Below, in pieces: positions 8,132 through 15,233 of a DNA stretch of 64,000 nucleotides; position 1 is the first letter of the stretch; every line of letters begins with the position of its first letter. Source of the DNA: Polyangiaceae bacterium (GTDB lineage: Bacteria > Myxococcota_A > Polyangia > Polyangiales > Polyangiaceae); contig JAICQO010000017.1 of the NCBI GenBank assembly GCA_025937835.1, positions 1-64,000 on the forward strand, read 5' to 3'. The translations under genes were made by a program, and so were the position numbers. The notes beneath the pieces were generated by a model. That model searched no databases, was not told where the DNA came from, and saw only the letters and a program-made list of their open reading frames with translations.

Positions 8132-11100
8132 TCAGTATCGTTTTCGCCAGATCAAGTCGACGGCGGACGCGCCCTTGTCGCCCACCTGGGTGGACAGCGA
8201 CCAGGCTCGAGCGAAGCGGAACTCGACGGTCAAGAACGTGCGATCGGGGCTCTGGCCGGGTGCCGGTTCGCCGAGCGCCTGAGTCACGCGCGCGGCGACG
8301 CGCGGGGTGAGCTGCACGACCAGCTCGGGCCGCGGCGCGCCGGTGCTCGTGTCGATGCGCGCGGAGACGTCGAGATCGGTCACGCTCGAGAGGGCTCGGT
8401 TCAGACCTTGCGCCGCAGTGCCGCCCGCGACGCCCACGGCCGTGGACAACGAATCGCCGCTGCCAGCGCCGAACGAACCGTCGGGGGTTCCGAACAGCAG
8501 CAGCGTCAGGATCTCGTCCTGGCTGAGCGGTGGGTCCGAATTGAGCCGCAGCTTGCCTTGCTTGGCGGTGCCCGCGTATTCGGCATACACCGTGTACCCC
8601 GCCGGGGAGTCGTAGCGAGCGACCGCGCTGATCGTGGGGTTGTCGGGTTCACCGCCCGTGAACGTGACGCTCCCCCGCTCGATTTCGAACTTCTTACCGG
8701 AGATGTCCAGCGTGCCGCTGCGCGTGTCGATCCGGCCTCGCACGTCGAGCTCCTCGCCCACGGTCGCTTGCACTTTGCCCGTGAGCGTCACGTTCGCCTG
8801 TTGCCCCTTCTTGATCGAGACTTCTCCGAGGTTCACGCCGATCACCGTCTTTTCGGCGGGCTCTTCGCCGGGCGGGGCCTCCTCCTCGATCGGCTGGAGC
8901 GGGATGGCCGCGAACTCGCCGTCTCGCCGGCGATAGCCGACGCGGATCCGCTCGTCCTGGTCGAGGGCCTGGATGCCTTGCGGTGCCAGCTCGGGCAACT
9001 CGACGTGCAGGCGTTTGACGTCGACCTGCAGCCGGCTCTCCCGCGCGCGCTCGTCGCGCCGGTAGTGCGCCTCGACTTTGCCCCAAGCATCGCCGACGGA
9101 CTCGCCCTCGATCGTGAGCGGCAGCTTGTCGTCCTCCGGGATGTCGAGGCTGCCGTCGAAAGCGACCGGCGTCACGCCGTCGAGGCGCGCGTCCGCTTTG
9201 GCGCGGAAGCCGCCGCTCAGGCCGCGGGCGCGAAGCTCGGTCACACGCACGCGCCCGGGTGTGACCTCGACCGTGCCCTGGATCCCGTGGAAGCGCTGGC
9301 CGAGCTTCGGCAATTGAACGACGCCGCCCTTCAACGCCGCGCGTCCGTTGAGCTGTGGCGTGCCGCCCACCATCTTTGCCGAGAATTGCGCGTCGAGCCG
9401 CCCGTCGAGCTCACTCACCGAGCCGGCGACGGCCGGAGCGAAGGCCGCTAGCCGTAGATTCTTGGCGAACAGCGAGCCTTCGAGGTTCTGGTCCACTTCG
9501 GGCACGGTTCTCCTGCCCCAGACGAAGCCCGTGCTGACTTTGGCTCCGGCGCTGCCGCCGGCGCCGTCGAGCTTGGCCTCGAACTCGATGCGCTTTCCGT
9601 CGGTGCCGAGCTTCGCCGTCAAGCGCTCGAGCACCAGCTGCTCGATACGCAGACGTCGCGTCTCGAGCTCGAGCGACAGCCGCGCGTCCGCGCCGAAGCC
9701 CTCGAGCTCTGCCCGCCCCGAGATGCGGCCGCGGATCTGACGATCGCGCAGGATCGGGATCACGGCCAGCGGAAACTCGGTGATCTCTGCCTTGAGCGAG
9801 CCCCGCACCGGGCTGTAGTTTTCAGTGGCCTTTCCGAGCTCGGCGACATCGCCCTGCCAGCGCGAATCGAGCGCGATGACTTGACCGCGGCGGCCATCGG
9901 CCTGGACCCGGAGCGCGCCCTCGGCGCGTGAGTACTTGGCTTCGACGAACACGCCGAGACCGCGCGGATCTTCGCGCTCGTTGACGGGTCCGAAGTGGGC
10001 GAGGGTAAGCAGCGCTTCGACCTTGGGATCGGCGAACGTACCCTTCGCCTGAACGTCGAGCGCCATCGCTCCGCGCAGATCGTTCGGGCGGATCGGCGTC
10101 GGGAGCCGTTGGAGGGCGCGGCCCGGGACGTTGAGCTTTGCCTCGAATGGCGCGGCCATCAACGCAGCGCTGCGCAACCGCTCGGGCGACAGCGACAGGC
10201 CGGCGACCTTCGCGGACAGATCCAGCAGCGTGCCGTGTTCGTCGAACAGGCGCGCCTCGACGCGGCCGCCCTGATCGTCTACTCGTGCGTCGAGGTTCAC
10301 GTCCATCCCGCGCAGCGTCCAGGGCGCGGTCTCGCGCGCGAGCCCCGGGTCGTTGGTGTTTCCAGCGTCCTTGCGCTGACCGACGATCAACAGCTTGTGG
10401 GACTCGAGGGCGAGGCGCGCTTTTGGCGGGCCCTTTCCGGGCTGGGCCTCGAGCGCGGCGTCCAGCTGCACGCGGCCCGTAGCCCGCTCGACGCCGGCGA
10501 TAGGGAACAACGGTGCGACCCGCTTCAGGTCGATGTCTCCGACCACCGACAGCGCGCCGCTCAGGTTGCGGAGGTCGGCCGCTTGGGAGAGCGGACCGCG
10601 CGTGGTCAGCTCCTGCATCGAGATCTTTGCGTTCGCGCCCTCGCCCAGGGCGACTGCGAGGTTACCCGTGAGCTTTCCCTTCTCGAGCTCGAGCTCGACG
10701 TCGGCGGTGCCGTTCTGAAATTTGCCGAGCGAAACCTGGCGAGCCTTGGCCGTCACCTTGCCCTCGGGCAACTTGCCGGGGCCGCGCAGCGAGGCGTCGA
10801 GATCCACCCGCGCCTGCTTGACCTCGGTCTGGATGCCGAACACGGACAGCGCCTTCACTGGTTCCAGGCCACGCGCGCGGAGCTCGAGCTTCTCGAGCGA
10901 CCTTCCGTAAACCGCCGAGAGCTCCGCGCTGCCTGCGCCGTCGATCGTCAACTTGTCTACAGAGAGCTTGCCGCCCGCGGTGCTCAAGGCGCGTGCTCGG
11001 AGCTCGAGCTTCGCGCCCGGGTTGGCGAGGCGTGCCACCAGATCTCGCACGAGCTCCTTTCCGTTCGGCGTGATCGTGGCCTGGACTTCGACCGTATCCG

Positions 11101-12640
11101 GATCCTTGCCGGCGATCCGTGCCCGAACCGCGAGGCGATCGGGCGTGCCGCTCGCATCGAGCTTCGCGCGCGTGAGCGTTCGGTCTGCCACCGTGACCTG
11201 GGATGCCGTGACCGTCGCCGAGAGTTGGGGCGCCTTCGTGGAGCCGCGCGCTTCGGCGACCACGTGGACGCGCTGGCTCCGCAGCGCGGGATGACGGACG
11301 TTTCGAGCAGAGAGCTCGGCGCGCGCTTCGAGGCGATCGGCAGCGCCGTCGTATTTGCCAGTGATTTGCAGGGGACCAGTGGCACGAAGGCCTCCGGTCA
11401 GTACGGCGATCCGCTGCGAATCGTCGAGCTCGGAGCGGCTCTGGACCTCGGCGACCACGCCCGCGGGGCTCGAGCGCACCGCGAACTCGGCGCGAGTGCG
11501 GGCGCCCGGCTCGGCGATCTGAACGTGACCGTCGACGCTGGTGGGGCCGGACTTCGGCACGGCCACGGTGGCTGCCAGAGTCACTCCCGGCAAAGCGTAG
11601 TCCTCGAAGCGCGACTCGGCGGAGGTCGCGGCGCTCACCTTGCCGCGCAGCCCGCTGTCCTCGAAGCGCAGCGTTGCGTCGGCCCTGATCGAGACCGCGG
11701 TCTTCGGCCCATCGGGGACGACCTGCGAGACGTCGATGCCTTGCGTCTCGACGTGCGCCTCCAGAAGCGGAACGCGACCGTCGTTCTGGAAGCGACCCTT
11801 GGCGCGCAACGAAGCAGCCTCGCGCTGGGCCTCGAGCTCGAGCAACAGATCGTCGAAGGGGCCGGAGACCTTCGCCACCGCCTGGACCCCGGTGGCTTCA
11901 GCCTCGACTTTGGCGGAAATCCTGCTCTTTTTTGGCTCGGTAGCCAGGAACGCCCGCGCGTCGAGCCGGCCGCGCACGCGCTCCACCTGCGGGATGCGCC
12001 GGGCGTCGAAGTTCAGGGAGGACACTCCGAGCTCCGTGCCTTTTGCGTCGTTCGTGAGCGACGCCTTCAGGCGAGCGAGATCCGTTTCGATCGGGCCGGG
12101 GCCAGCCAGCGCACCTCGAACCTTGCCGCTTTCGACGGCGATCTCGTCCACGACCACGCGCGTTCCGGGGCCTTGTGAGGGCGGGCTCGGCTTCTGCGGG
12201 TCGAAGGCGTGGGCCAGGGTGGGGGTACCGGTGCCGTCGTCGATCAACCACACCTGGAGATCGGCCACCGATGCGCGGCGCACGTGAACCAGCAACGGCT
12301 CGCTGCCCCCGCGCACGGCGTTGTAGACAAGCCTCGGCCAGGCTAGCGACACCTCGGCGTTTCGAGCGCGGACCACGGTCTTGCCGGCGGGGTCGCGGAT
12401 CTCGAGGTCTACGTCTTTCACCCCGCCGAGGTCCACGTGACCGATGCGGTCGATGATCAGACGCCCGCGGAACATCGTCTCGAGCGCGGAGTTCGTCTGA
12501 CTGACGATCAGGCCGCGAACTGGGCCGAAATCGAGCGAGAGCAGGGCGACCACGACCAGCAGGACCACGCCCGCCAACAGCCCGACAATCACCTTGAGCG
12601 CGAGCTTCGCGATCTTGCGGAGGCGAGAAGGACGGGCCAT
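8132..12640 (-). CDS. tamB: TamB/DUF490-type translocation and assembly module protein
   Basis: A 1502-residue inner-membrane-anchored, periplasm-spanning protein. One N-terminal TM segment (about 14-36) is followed by a very long repetitive beta-rich region. The C-terminal DUF490/TamB domain has the hallmark EILTLLLFGTPDG and the terminal LIWRKRY segment. Known: TamB with the Omp85 protein TamA supports outer-membrane protein insertion, and AsmA-like TamB proteins are implicated in lipid transport across the periplasm. The start is the ATG ending at 12640: it overlaps the stop of the upstream Omp85 gene (TGATG), and the TM anchor follows at once, whereas upstream in-frame codons lie inside that gene. 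The linkage strongly supports the assignment. Confidence 0.9.
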   Translation of the reverse strand: MARPSRLRKIAKLALKVIVGLLAGVVLLVVVALLSLDFGPVRGLIVSQTNSALETMFRGRLIIDRIGHVDLGGVKDVDLEIRDPAGKTVVRARNAEVSLAWPRLVYNAVRGGSEPLLVHVRRASVADLQVWLIDDGTGTPTLAHAFDPQKPSPPSQGPGTRVVVDEIAVESGKVRGALAGPGPIETDLARLKASLTNDAKGTELGVSSLNFDARRIPQVERVRGRLDARAFLATEPKKSRISAKVEAEATGVQAVAKVSGPFDDLLLELEAQREAASLRAKGRFQNDGRVPLLEAHVETQGIDVSQVVPDGPKTAVSIRADATLRFEDSGLRGKVSAATSAESRFEDYALPGVTLAATVAVPKSGPTSVDGHVQIAEPGARTRAEFAVRSSPAGVVAEVQSRSELDDSQRIAVLTGGLRATGPLQITGKYDGAADRLEARAELSARNVRHPALRSQRVHVVAEARGSTKAPQLSATVTASQVTVADRTLTRAKLDASGTPDRLAVRARIAGKDPDTVEVQATITPNGKELVRDLVARLANPGAKLELRARALSTAGGKLSVDKLTIDGAGSAELSAVYGRSLEKLELRARGLEPVKALSVFGIQTEVKQARVDLDASLRGPGKLPEGKVTAKARQVSLGKFQNGTADVELELEKGKLTGNLAVALGEGANAKISMQELTTRGPLSQAADLRNLSGALSVVGDIDLKRVAPLFPIAGVERATGRVQLDAALEAQPGKGPPKARLALESHKLLIVGQRKDAGNTNDPGLARETAPWTLRGMDVNLDARVDDQGGRVEARLFDEHGTLLDLSAKVAGLSLSPERLRSAALMAAPFEAKLNVPGRALQRLPTPIRPNDLRGAMALDVQAKGTFADPKVEALLTLAHFGPVNEREDPRGLGVFVEAKYSRAEGALRVQADGRRGQVIALDSRWQGDVAELGKATENYSPVRGSLKAEITEFPLAVIPILRDRQIRGRISGRAELEGFGADARLSLELETRRLRIEQLVLERLTAKLGTDGKRIEFEAKLDGAGGSAGAKVSTGFVWGRRTVPEVDQNLEGSLFAKNLRLAAFAPAVAGSVSELDGRLDAQFSAKMVGGTPQLNGRAALKGGVVQLPKLGQRFHGIQGTVEVTPGRVRVTELRARGLSGGFRAKADARLDGVTPVAFDGSLDIPEDDKLPLTIEGESVGDAWGKVEAHYRRDERARESRLQVDVKRLHVELPELAPQGIQALDQDERIRVGYRRRDGEFAAIPLQPIEEEAPPGEEPAEKTVIGVNLGEVSIKKGQQANVTLTGKVQATVGEELDVRGRIDTRSGTLDISGKKFEIERGSVTFTGGEPDNPTISAVARYDSPAGYTVYAEYAGTAKQGKLRLNSDPPLSQDEILTLLLFGTPDGSFGAGSGDSLSTAVGVAGGTAAQGLNRALSSVTDLDVSARIDTSTGAPRPELVVQLTPRVAARVTQALGEPAPGQSPDRTFLTVEFRFARAWSLSTQVGDKGASAVDLIWRKRY

Positions 12641-14766
12641 CAGAAGGGTTCTCCGATGCCGAAGGAAATGGCGACCGGTAACCCCCAGAGCGTGTCCGGC
12701 TCGAACTCGTCCGCGCTTTCGGGCGCTTGCAGTCCGGGGATCCGATAGCCGGCATCGAGCCGCACCGGTCCGACCGGCGTGGCGAAGCGAAGCCCGAGCC
12801 CTACGCTCGTGTGCGGATGATCGAAGCGGAAGTCGGTTTGATACGGAGAGACGTCTGCGAGGTCGCCGAACACGGCGCCTCGCAGCGGGCCGGTGATCGG
12901 GAAGCGCAGCTCGAGGCTCGCCTCCCAGAGTGTGAACCCGCCGAGCGGCAAGTCGCAATTGCCGGGGACGTCGCTGGAGCTCGCGTCGCAGCTGCCCGTC
13001 ACTTCCTCGCTGGTCTGTCCCGGGTTGTAGAAGGGTACCGTGCCGTGCGGGCCGATCTCACGCAGCGCGTAGCCACGATTGGAGCCCGAGCCGCCGGCGA
13101 AGAAGCCGCGCAAGAACATCAGCTGCACATCGCGCACCCACTCCGCACGCGACGTCGGAGAGCTGCCCGTGAGCGCGTTGGGCGCCACGGTGTCGCCGTA
13201 ATTCGCGGGGAAGAGGAAGCCCACGCTGGCTCGCCCCGCCAGCGTGAACCGGCGTCCGAGCGGCACGTAGCCGCGGGCCTCGGGCTGCAGCTTGACGTCG
13301 CGGGCGTCGCCTCCGAGCCCGGCGACCTGGAAGGTGGTGCTCGCATAGGCTCCCTTGGTCGGCTCGAGCCGGTCGTCGCGCGCGTCCAGCCGCAAGAACA
13401 GCTCCGGATAGGAGACCCAGACGGTGTCCAGATCCGGATCGAGTTGTCCGAGATACGTGAAGGGATCGTTGACTTGCACGTTGTGCGTGAGGCTGCCGTG
13501 AACCTTCCAGTAGATGGAGCGCTCGACGCCGGCCGCCGCACGCAGGTCCCGATATCCGAGGATCGGTAGCTCGGGATCGCGAACGCTCGAGAGCAGCACC
13601 GGGTAAATGCTGGCTTGAGTGCGGATCACGCCTTGCGTGATTGGTTCGATGAAACCCGGTTGGCGGAACTCGAGCCGCAGCCGCGCTTGGGGCAACAGCC
13701 GCTCGGGCGCCTCGAATTCGGGCAGGCGCGTCGGGTAGATCACCGCGCCGGGTACGAACTCGATCATCAGGTTGCGCAGCCCGCCCAGGAAATTCCGGTG
13801 TTCCCAGCCGGCTACCAAATGCACGTCGGTCTTTTGGCTGTCGACCGCGATACCACCTCCCAGGTGGACGCTTCTGAACTTGCTGACCTCGAGCTTCACG
13901 TCGATCGGAACCGTGCGATCCGCCGCCTTCTCGGTGTTCTCGTCGATGCGCGGCCGCACGCTCACGGAGCTGAACACGCCGAGGTCGAGGACGGCGCGCT
14001 CGGCGGATTCGAGCTCCGAAAGCGAGTACCGCTCGCCGGGCTCTAGCCCCAGGGAGGCGCGGACCCGCTCTTCGGGGATCTGCCCGAGCCCCTCGATCTC
14101 GATCTTGCCGAGGCGCACTTCGGGCCCGGGATCCACCCAGTAGCCGGCGCTCGCTCGGTTCTTTCCGAGGTTCACGTCGGCGGCGCGGCGCACCTTCACG
14201 AACGCATGTCCGTTGTCGGCGAAGACGCGCTCGATCGCCGCCGCTGCCTCCTCGAACGGCTCCTCTTCGAAGCGGCCGTTCAGCGGCAGTCGCGATTGCG
14301 CCGCGTCCTTCGCGTCTTCCGCGACCTCGGGATCGACCTGCTCGAGTCCATGCACGTCGACTCGAGCCACGCGCACCGGCTCGCCTTCCTCGACCACGAT
14401 CTCGACGTTGATCTCGTTGTCGTTGAGGTAGGTCACGCGACCGGCGCGCACGCGCGTCCAGTAGAACCCCCGCGCGCGGTAGTAGCGCTCGATGCGCTGC
14501 AAGTCGCGCTCGAGCACGTAGCGGTCGAAGATCTCGTAGTCGTAGATCAGTCCCTTGAAAACAGCGAGAAACCTGGGGGTCTCGCGGCTCGCGATCTTCT
14601 CCTCGAGCTCCCCGTCGTCGAGCGCACGATTGCCGGTGAAGTCGATGCGATTCAGCGCGTAGCGCCGATCGGGGATGGCAGTGCAGGCAGACACGGAGGC
14701 GAGCAGGAGCAAGGCGCCGAGGACCGCGAGCGCTCGACGCAGGGGTGAGTGCACGTGACCAATCAT
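12640..14766 (-). CDS. tamA: Omp85-family outer-membrane protein, TamA-like, with lipobox
   Basis: A 708-residue Omp85 protein. About three POTRA domains occupy residues 35-310 (for example LNRIDFTGNRALDDGE, ARVDVHGLEQVDPE and LGKIEIEGLGQIPEERV), the number expected for TamA rather than BamA's five. The rest is a 16-strand-type barrel carrying the loop-6 region FFAGGSGSNRGYALREIGP and a closing DAGYRIPG strand. The leader has a lipobox-like VSAC just after the hydrophobic core, so the protein may be lipidated, which is unusual for Omp85 proteins. I use the ATG at 14766; an in-frame GTG at 14775 is possible. It is the first gene of the tamA-tamB pair, divergent from a lipoprotein gene. Confidence 0.88.
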   Translation of the reverse strand: MIGHVHSPLRRALAVLGALLLLASVSACTAIPDRRYALNRIDFTGNRALDDGELEEKIASRETPRFLAVFKGLIYDYEIFDRYVLERDLQRIERYYRARGFYWTRVRAGRVTYLNDNEINVEIVVEEGEPVRVARVDVHGLEQVDPEVAEDAKDAAQSRLPLNGRFEEEPFEEAAAAIERVFADNGHAFVKVRRAADVNLGKNRASAGYWVDPGPEVRLGKIEIEGLGQIPEERVRASLGLEPGERYSLSELESAERAVLDLGVFSSVSVRPRIDENTEKAADRTVPIDVKLEVSKFRSVHLGGGIAVDSQKTDVHLVAGWEHRNFLGGLRNLMIEFVPGAVIYPTRLPEFEAPERLLPQARLRLEFRQPGFIEPITQGVIRTQASIYPVLLSSVRDPELPILGYRDLRAAAGVERSIYWKVHGSLTHNVQVNDPFTYLGQLDPDLDTVWVSYPELFLRLDARDDRLEPTKGAYASTTFQVAGLGGDARDVKLQPEARGYVPLGRRFTLAGRASVGFLFPANYGDTVAPNALTGSSPTSRAEWVRDVQLMFLRGFFAGGSGSNRGYALREIGPHGTVPFYNPGQTSEEVTGSCDASSSDVPGNCDLPLGGFTLWEASLELRFPITGPLRGAVFGDLADVSPYQTDFRFDHPHTSVGLGLRFATPVGPVRLDAGYRIPGLQAPESADEFEPDTLWGLPVAISFGIGEPF

Positions 14767-14816
14767 GCAAGCCACAGACCAGGTGTTTTGGCTCGAGTCG
14801 TGCTAACGCGAGCTGC

Positions 14817-15233
14817 GTGCGGTTCTGCCTCGCCTCGTTGCTCGCGTCCATGCTCTTCGGTTGTGCTGGCTCGTTGCCGGCTCCCGAAGCGGCGATCCAT
14901 CGCCACGACGCCTACGTCGAAGTGCCTTATCCGCCGCCGGCCGCGCTCGTCGAAGTCGTACCGGAGCCTTGGCCAGCGGGCGCCGTCTGGGTCGACGGGA
15001 ACTGGGTGTGGCGAGGCCGTTACTACGTGTGGCAGCGTGGCGGTTGGATGAAGGAAATCGAGGGCCTGAGTTACGCGGGCTGGAAGTGCCGTCTGGCCAA
15101 CGACGGGCGGCTGCTGTTCGCGAAGGGCACCTGGTACGATTCGCATCGGGAGCCGGCTCCAGCTCCGCCGATCGTCACGCCGGCCCACACGCCGCCCAAC
15201 GAGATCACGGTCGAAACCGAGGCCCCGCGCTGA
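14817..15233 (+). CDS. Small lipoprotein with YXWGXW-like Trp/Tyr repeat
   Basis: A 138-residue predicted lipoprotein. A GTG start at 14817 gives a clean signal peptide ending in the lipobox LFGC. The mature part has EVPYPPPAALVEVVPEPWP, then an aromatic WVDGNWVWRGRYYVWQRGGW segment, which resembles YXWGXW-repeat cell-envelope proteins. It ends in a Pro-rich tail. An in-frame ATG at 14745 would extend the gene into the divergent tamA start, so I prefer the GTG. Function unknown; members of this type are envelope-associated. It is likely monocistronic, with a hairpin 8 nt after its stop. Confidence 0.7.
   Translation: MRFCLASLLASMLFGCAGSLPAPEAAIHRHDAYVEVPYPPPAALVEVVPEPWPAGAVWVDGNWVWRGRYYVWQRGGWMKEIEGLSYAGWKCRLANDGRLLFAKGTWYDSHREPAPAPPIVTPAHTPPNEITVETEAPR

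Follow-up and report, generated by a model that had tools for sequence, protein, structure and literature searches.

We describe here a gene of a Polyangiaceae bacterium (contig JAICQO010000017.1, positions 1 to 64,000; this whole stretch of 64,000 nucleotides is hereafter the window) whose product is an Omp85 protein and, judging from its leader and from that of its relatives, very probably also a lipoprotein. By analogy with TamL of Bacteroidota, we consider it quite probable that the protein is a lipid-anchored Omp85 of the TamA type and the partner of the TamB whose gene comes immediately after its own.

The Omp85 gene and its leader

Reading-frame analysis placed an open reading frame of 708 aa on the minus strand of the window at 12640..14766, with an ATG at 14766 and the stop codon at 12642-12640 (an alternative in-frame start, GTG, is possible at 14775). 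Its product matched two Pfam families, Omp85 with a best stretch at 459-706 (E 2.6e-31) and POTRA with one at 37-128 (E 4.5e-24), and the leader read as MIGHVHSPLRRALAVLGALLLLASVSA followed by C28, in agreement with the earlier quotation; the frame, the leader and the domains of the original prediction, which had proposed an Omp85/TamA-like protein with an apparent lipobox, were thus all found. From the frame, these domains and an AlphaFold2 model, we annotated the gene as that of a TamL-like Omp85 lipoprotein (lipoprotein by prediction).

The predicted type II signal peptide (residues 1-27, 14686..14766, minus strand) contains two arginines and a long hydrophobic run, and ends in the lipobox ASVSA just ahead of C28; its assignment draws on the sequence, on a helix at residues 8-26 of the model and on the lipobox kept in relatives. 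The codon of Cys28, the predicted lipidation site (+1), lies at 14683..14685 on the same strand and is followed by Thr at +2, and the cysteine stands nine residues ahead of POTRA 1, which starts at about residue 37. The general features of lipoproteins can therefore be read from the sequence, namely a lipobox after an n-region and an h-region, and a conserved cysteine. Scans for promoters and terminators did not rise clearly over shuffled sequence (0 promoters; 5 terminators, with a shuffled mean of 4.1). On the plus strand, a small open reading frame (14745-15233), which when taken from its first possible start runs into the 5' end of the Omp85 gene, has a lipobox-like SMLFGC and a tryptophan- and glycine-rich middle; a Pfam search with its stretch 14763-15230 returned no match.

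Taken alone, the leader motif is ambiguous, since V-S-A ahead of C28 is also an acceptable signal peptidase I site, and the lipobox might be coincidental, with signal peptidase I cutting the leader of an ordinary TamA. We therefore turned to the conservation of the cysteine, using the Omp85 protein as query. In the class, 109 of the 192 genomes searched gave a match at E 1e-20 and 83 did not; in the phylum, 122 of 236 gave one at E 1e-15 and 114 did not. The N-termini of 117 distinct homologous open reading frames were compared, 111 of them relatives and six of signal-peptidase-I (SPI) type; these loci were the best search matches together with stretches hand-chosen from the match lists, and their counts are not independent events because several loci come from one genome. 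A simple fixed rule, chosen once the N-termini had been seen, found a lipobox in 101 of the 111 relatives from class and phylum. It replaced an earlier rule that missed many sites because it accepted few residues at -3 and no charged ones within the nine positions ahead of the cysteine. Nine of the ten relatives missed by the fixed rule still have a cysteine at the site by eye, giving 110 of 111 in total; the misses were due to a Pro, His or acidic residue shortly before the cysteine or, in L118, to the lack of a start codon in range. As controls, the same rule scored a lipobox in 1 of 30 BamA proteins of the class (L198, with a cysteine within the hydrophobic stretch) and in none of the six SPI-type TamA-like proteins of the phylum (Fisher p 1.6e-20 for the rule count in relatives against BamA, relatedness ignored). 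An alignment of 60 of 68 candidates also has an invariant C28, which we did not count as evidence because its rows had been pre-selected by the lipobox rule.

Only one member of the lipobox clade, L081 (G146:C166), lacks the cysteine; its leader is SPI-like, tamB still lies downstream, and this is an apparent secondary loss. L081 thus illustrates that the cysteine can be lost, which together with the suitability of V-S-A for signal peptidase I speaks for a coincidental lipobox. Against this stands a cysteine ending the hydrophobic leader in nearly all relatives, which marks the leader as a real inherited feature, settles the ambiguity of the motif in favour of the lipobox and leaves an ordinary, signal-peptidase-I-cleaved TamA very improbable; a chance lipobox was accordingly dropped on cysteine conservation and controls. 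The conservation that had been proposed as a check of the original prediction thus holds across the class and the phylum, and it lends good support to the predicted lipidation beside POTRA 1.

Outside the window's own genome, the lipobox occurs in several families of the class and also in genomes of the phylum that lie outside it; for this wider set, the name Myxococcota is based on the names of the nearest relatives and on kinship labels. In a contig search that returned three loci, the nearest named relatives were a metagenome-assembled genome labelled 'Proteobacteria bacterium' at 63%, one of Sorangium at 59% and one of Polyangiaceae at 56%, Sorangium belonging to Polyangiaceae, Polyangia, Myxococcota in the NCBI taxonomy. 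SPI-like leaders were seen in six TamA-like proteins from a few families of the phylum (L128, L130, L137, L142, L144 and L145). When these six genomes were searched with the lipobox-clade profile (E 1e-20), each gave a single match of nearly full length, the SPI-type gene itself, so the two forms do not coexist in these six genomes at that threshold; the other matches were partial and fell in different open reading frames, mostly of 1100-1400 residues.

Predicted fold and linkage to tamB

The AlphaFold2 model of the Omp85 protein, built with an alignment of 60 sequences, reached a mean pLDDT of 92.0 and a pTM of 0.83. Behind the leader helix it has POTRA 1 (residues 37-126, 14389..14658; Pfam POTRA 37-128 and the secondary structure of the model), POTRA 2 (residues 132-212, 14131..14373; secondary structure of the model) and POTRA 3 (residues 218-294, 13885..14115; the model and a weak POTRA_1 match at 218-271, under the Pfam cut-off), followed by a 16-strand beta-barrel (residues 298-708, 12643..13875, all on the minus strand), the strands of which span 298-704 in the model and align to the barrels of Sam50, BamA and TamA. 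Among solved structures (Foldseek was also run), the best match by Z was Sam50 (9nk6, Z 29.3, 388 residues aligned), with BamA barrels also at the top. TamA of P. aeruginosa (8us3) aligned almost over its full length (542 of 552 residues, Z 26.9, rmsd 4.6), its Z being slightly under those of Sam50 and BamA, while full BamA chains aligned to the model over at most 582 residues. Like TamL, the protein is predicted to have an Omp85 fold made up of three POTRAs and a barrel of 16 strands.

Directly downstream, on the same strand, lies tamB (8132..12640, 1502 aa), with an N-terminal hydrophobic anchor and a C-terminal TamB domain (PF04357, E 1e-39, best stretch 1248-1502); the stop codon of the Omp85 gene and the start codon of tamB overlap by one base in TGATG (12638..12642, minus strand). 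This TamB scored 60.6 bits on the NCBIfam TamB model, under the cut-off of 825, and a profile built from its C-terminus also retrieved TamB of E. coli, alphaproteobacteria and Bacteroidota. As side observations, the TamB domain matches the gene in two separate stretches (8135-8908 and 9266-9823, minus strand), and the protein has a weak YhdP match (24.4 bits, under the cut-off of 46).

Linkage was assessed in 82 open reading frames of the lipobox group with at least 4 kb downstream, the window locus being excluded. In 69 of them tamB follows directly on the same strand, with a gap between the open frames of less than 400 bases; four have tamB upstream, and the remaining nine have a same-strand tamB on neither side (one of these lies near an opposite-strand tamB). 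SPI-type genes were followed by tamB in four of six cases, one of the others overlapping a tamB-matching frame and one being too close to a contig end, and the link to tamB is thus independent of the lipid.

The window's own genome encodes a paralogue (L085, G000:C7:3660-5759) that is 42% identical, has HVAG ahead of its lipobox cysteine and is immediately followed by a tamB of its own. This genome therefore holds two pairs of lipobox Omp85 gene and tamB, as well as a third tamB on C86, beside which no Omp85 gene was seen in the 18 kb examined. It also encodes LspA, LolA and a separate BamA (624.5 bits, over the cut-off). At another locus (L054, G080:C17:198631-201756), two lipobox Omp85 genes stand back to back on opposite strands, and tamB follows only the one on the plus strand.

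Relation to BamA, TamA and TamL

Trees were inferred from the last 500 residues only, leaving out the leader; as the SPI label was given after the N-termini had been inspected, these trees are the only independent evidence. The first was thinned from 160 rows to 113. All 78 phylum proteins outside the SPI type grouped together in it (SH-aLRT 98), and the six SPI-type ones fell with TamA (89). The second came from a careful search with 57 rows, including 29 of the lipobox clade hand-picked from 78, and recovered both the lipobox group (100/99) and Bacteroidota TamL (100/100). Here the six SPI-type proteins adjoined the lipobox group weakly (83/73), three TamA proteins adjoined the lipobox and SPI-type groups, again weakly (89/87), and E. 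coli TamA joined BamA on a long and unsure branch. This tree requires the state of the cysteine to have changed three times or more, which would agree with a single change in each of the two groups plus another in L081.

BamA shares with the window protein the Omp85 barrel and the POTRA fold, and its model (TIGR03303) gave the best NCBIfam score, 183.9 bits. Moreover, extra 'Group 2' and 'Group 3' Omp85 proteins of Myxobacteria were treated as BamA paralogues by Heinz and Lithgow 2014 (PMC4104836); coming from the same phylum and likened here by description alone, they may include the lipobox clade. Both points would suit a protein that serves barrel assembly in general, as a second BamA, and has tamB as a passive neighbour. 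In contrast, the score is under the cut-off of 297.15, the window protein has three POTRAs, the cut-off-passing BamA is encoded elsewhere in the genome, the lipobox clade stood outside the BamA group in both trees, tamB linkage is frequent, and the lipobox rule finds nothing in 29 of 30 BamA proteins of the class. We judge a second BamA to be improbable.

The preferred reading as a TamA-type protein agrees with what the window protein shares with TamA of Proteobacteria (NF047950), that is, three POTRAs, a 16-strand barrel, the near-full-length alignment to 8us3 and the tamA-tamB gene order, as in E. coli. It differs in its score (99.9 bits, with a cut-off of 625) and in its leader, which is of the signal-peptidase-I type in TamA whereas the window leader carries the conserved cysteine of a predicted lipobox; the name TamA was dropped on account of this leader.

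The original prediction had taken Omp85 proteins to carry normally a Sec signal without lipidation. This premise proved incomplete, since TamL of Bacteroidota and Chlorobi is a known Omp85 lipoprotein (PMC4104836, PMC4494059 and PMC12045153); the first of these papers reports Omp85 lipoproteins from Bacteroidetes and Chlorobi. TamL (NF052279) has in common with the window protein the Omp85 family, three POTRAs, a lipobox cysteine shortly before POTRA 1 and, in three of five annotated TamL records examined, an adjoining tamB; in those three Bacteroidota records, tamB precedes tamL, whereas it follows the Omp85 gene in the window. The window protein further differs in its score (65.2 bits, with a cut-off of 400), its separate tree clade and its phylum. 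Across 145 genomes including the window's own, the TamL model gave weak matches in 144 and none over the cut-off, while two Prevotella proteins used as positive control scored 819.6 and 773.0 bits. In an observation of its own, another Omp85 group of the order (L099-L106, for example G164:C96:9144-10355, open frames of 762-1966 aa) contained the top relatives on this model, at up to 76 bits, and formed a separate long-branched tree group (five of the eight included).

It is possible, if rather doubtful, that the protein is a true TamL, the lipid-anchored form having had a single origin and having reached both Bacteroidota and Myxococcota by inheritance or by transfer. A tree forced to join the lipobox clade with TamL was only 4.26 lnL units lower than the best tree (AU p 0.274), and the pattern C.{1,7}[VIL]P.[GRNK] after the cysteine occurs in 28 of 51 relatives of the window's order and in eight of nine TamL proteins. 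However, the best trees do not join the two clades, no genome reaches the TamL cut-off, the gene order is reversed and the pattern occurs in none of 50 relatives outside the order. In a background of 24 lipobox-like open reading frames, five had this pattern, at least four of them TamL proteins, and the pattern as evidence of common origin with TamL was set aside because this background is too small. The stretch after Cys28 itself (TAIPDRRY, residues 29-36, 14659-14682) is similar to the corresponding one in Bacteroidota TamL, of which SGLRHVPEGKH and STTKFVPDGEY are examples. Naming the protein TamL outright was dropped, given the missed curated cut-off and the AU result for the joint clade; it is TamL-like by design and not TamL by curated definition.

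Proposed role of the lipid anchor

In the mechanism that we propose, the Omp85 protein would be exported by Sec, acylated on Cys28 and cleaved by signal peptidase II (LspA), after which the Lol pathway would release it towards the outer membrane, where BAM would insert the barrel. POTRA 1, which of all the domains lies most distant from the barrel, would then be kept by the lipid on the periplasmic side of the outer membrane, and the POTRA arm, bending back, might offer a docking site to TamB reaching over from the inner membrane. The original prediction had the anchor tether the protein to a membrane before barrel insertion; it might just as well come into play once assembly is complete, by keeping the POTRA arm at the membrane. 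Consistently with such a partnership, in F. johnsoniae (PMC12045153) TamL and TamB could not be deleted, a mutant in the lipidation cysteine of TamL was unobtainable, and TamL co-purified with TamB.

Release towards the outer membrane was inferred from residue +2, a Thr in the window protein; inner-membrane lipoproteins of M. xanthus commonly carry Lys at this position (8 of 12; PMC3222651), a rule drawn from these proteins of another order. Should the lipid instead stay in the inner membrane, one protein would span the periplasm from an inner-membrane lipid to an outer-membrane barrel. The six of 101 rule-passing relatives with Lys at +2 would agree with this, whereas the window protein and the other 95 have a different residue there, and spanning of the periplasm by three POTRAs is called uncertain in PMC4104836; we hold such a trans-periplasmic arrangement to be highly improbable.

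In the literature searched, mostly as titles and opening lines of abstracts and with few subscription papers covered, no description of a lipid-anchored Omp85 in Myxococcota was found. The window protein is best read, on predicted features, as a widespread lipid-anchored partner of TamB in Myxococcota, and adds to the precedent of TamL a distinct clade from another phylum. We would give slightly less than an even chance to a broader scenario in which the lipid anchor of the Omp85 component of the TAM arose independently in Myxococcota and in Bacteroidota/Chlorobi, the Myxococcota form commonly replacing ordinary TamA, so that a tether on POTRA 1 would be a recurrent solution tied to TamB and no peculiarity of the Bacteroidota envelope. 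A second clade with a predicted lipid anchor, in another phylum, provides a comparison, independent or transferred, for which the SPI-type TamA-like proteins of a few lineages of the phylum are a natural contrast. These results suggest that the leaders of proteins annotated as BamA/TamA family in Myxococcota are worth checking for the lipoprotein type, and Omp85 lipidation could be studied in culturable myxobacteria.
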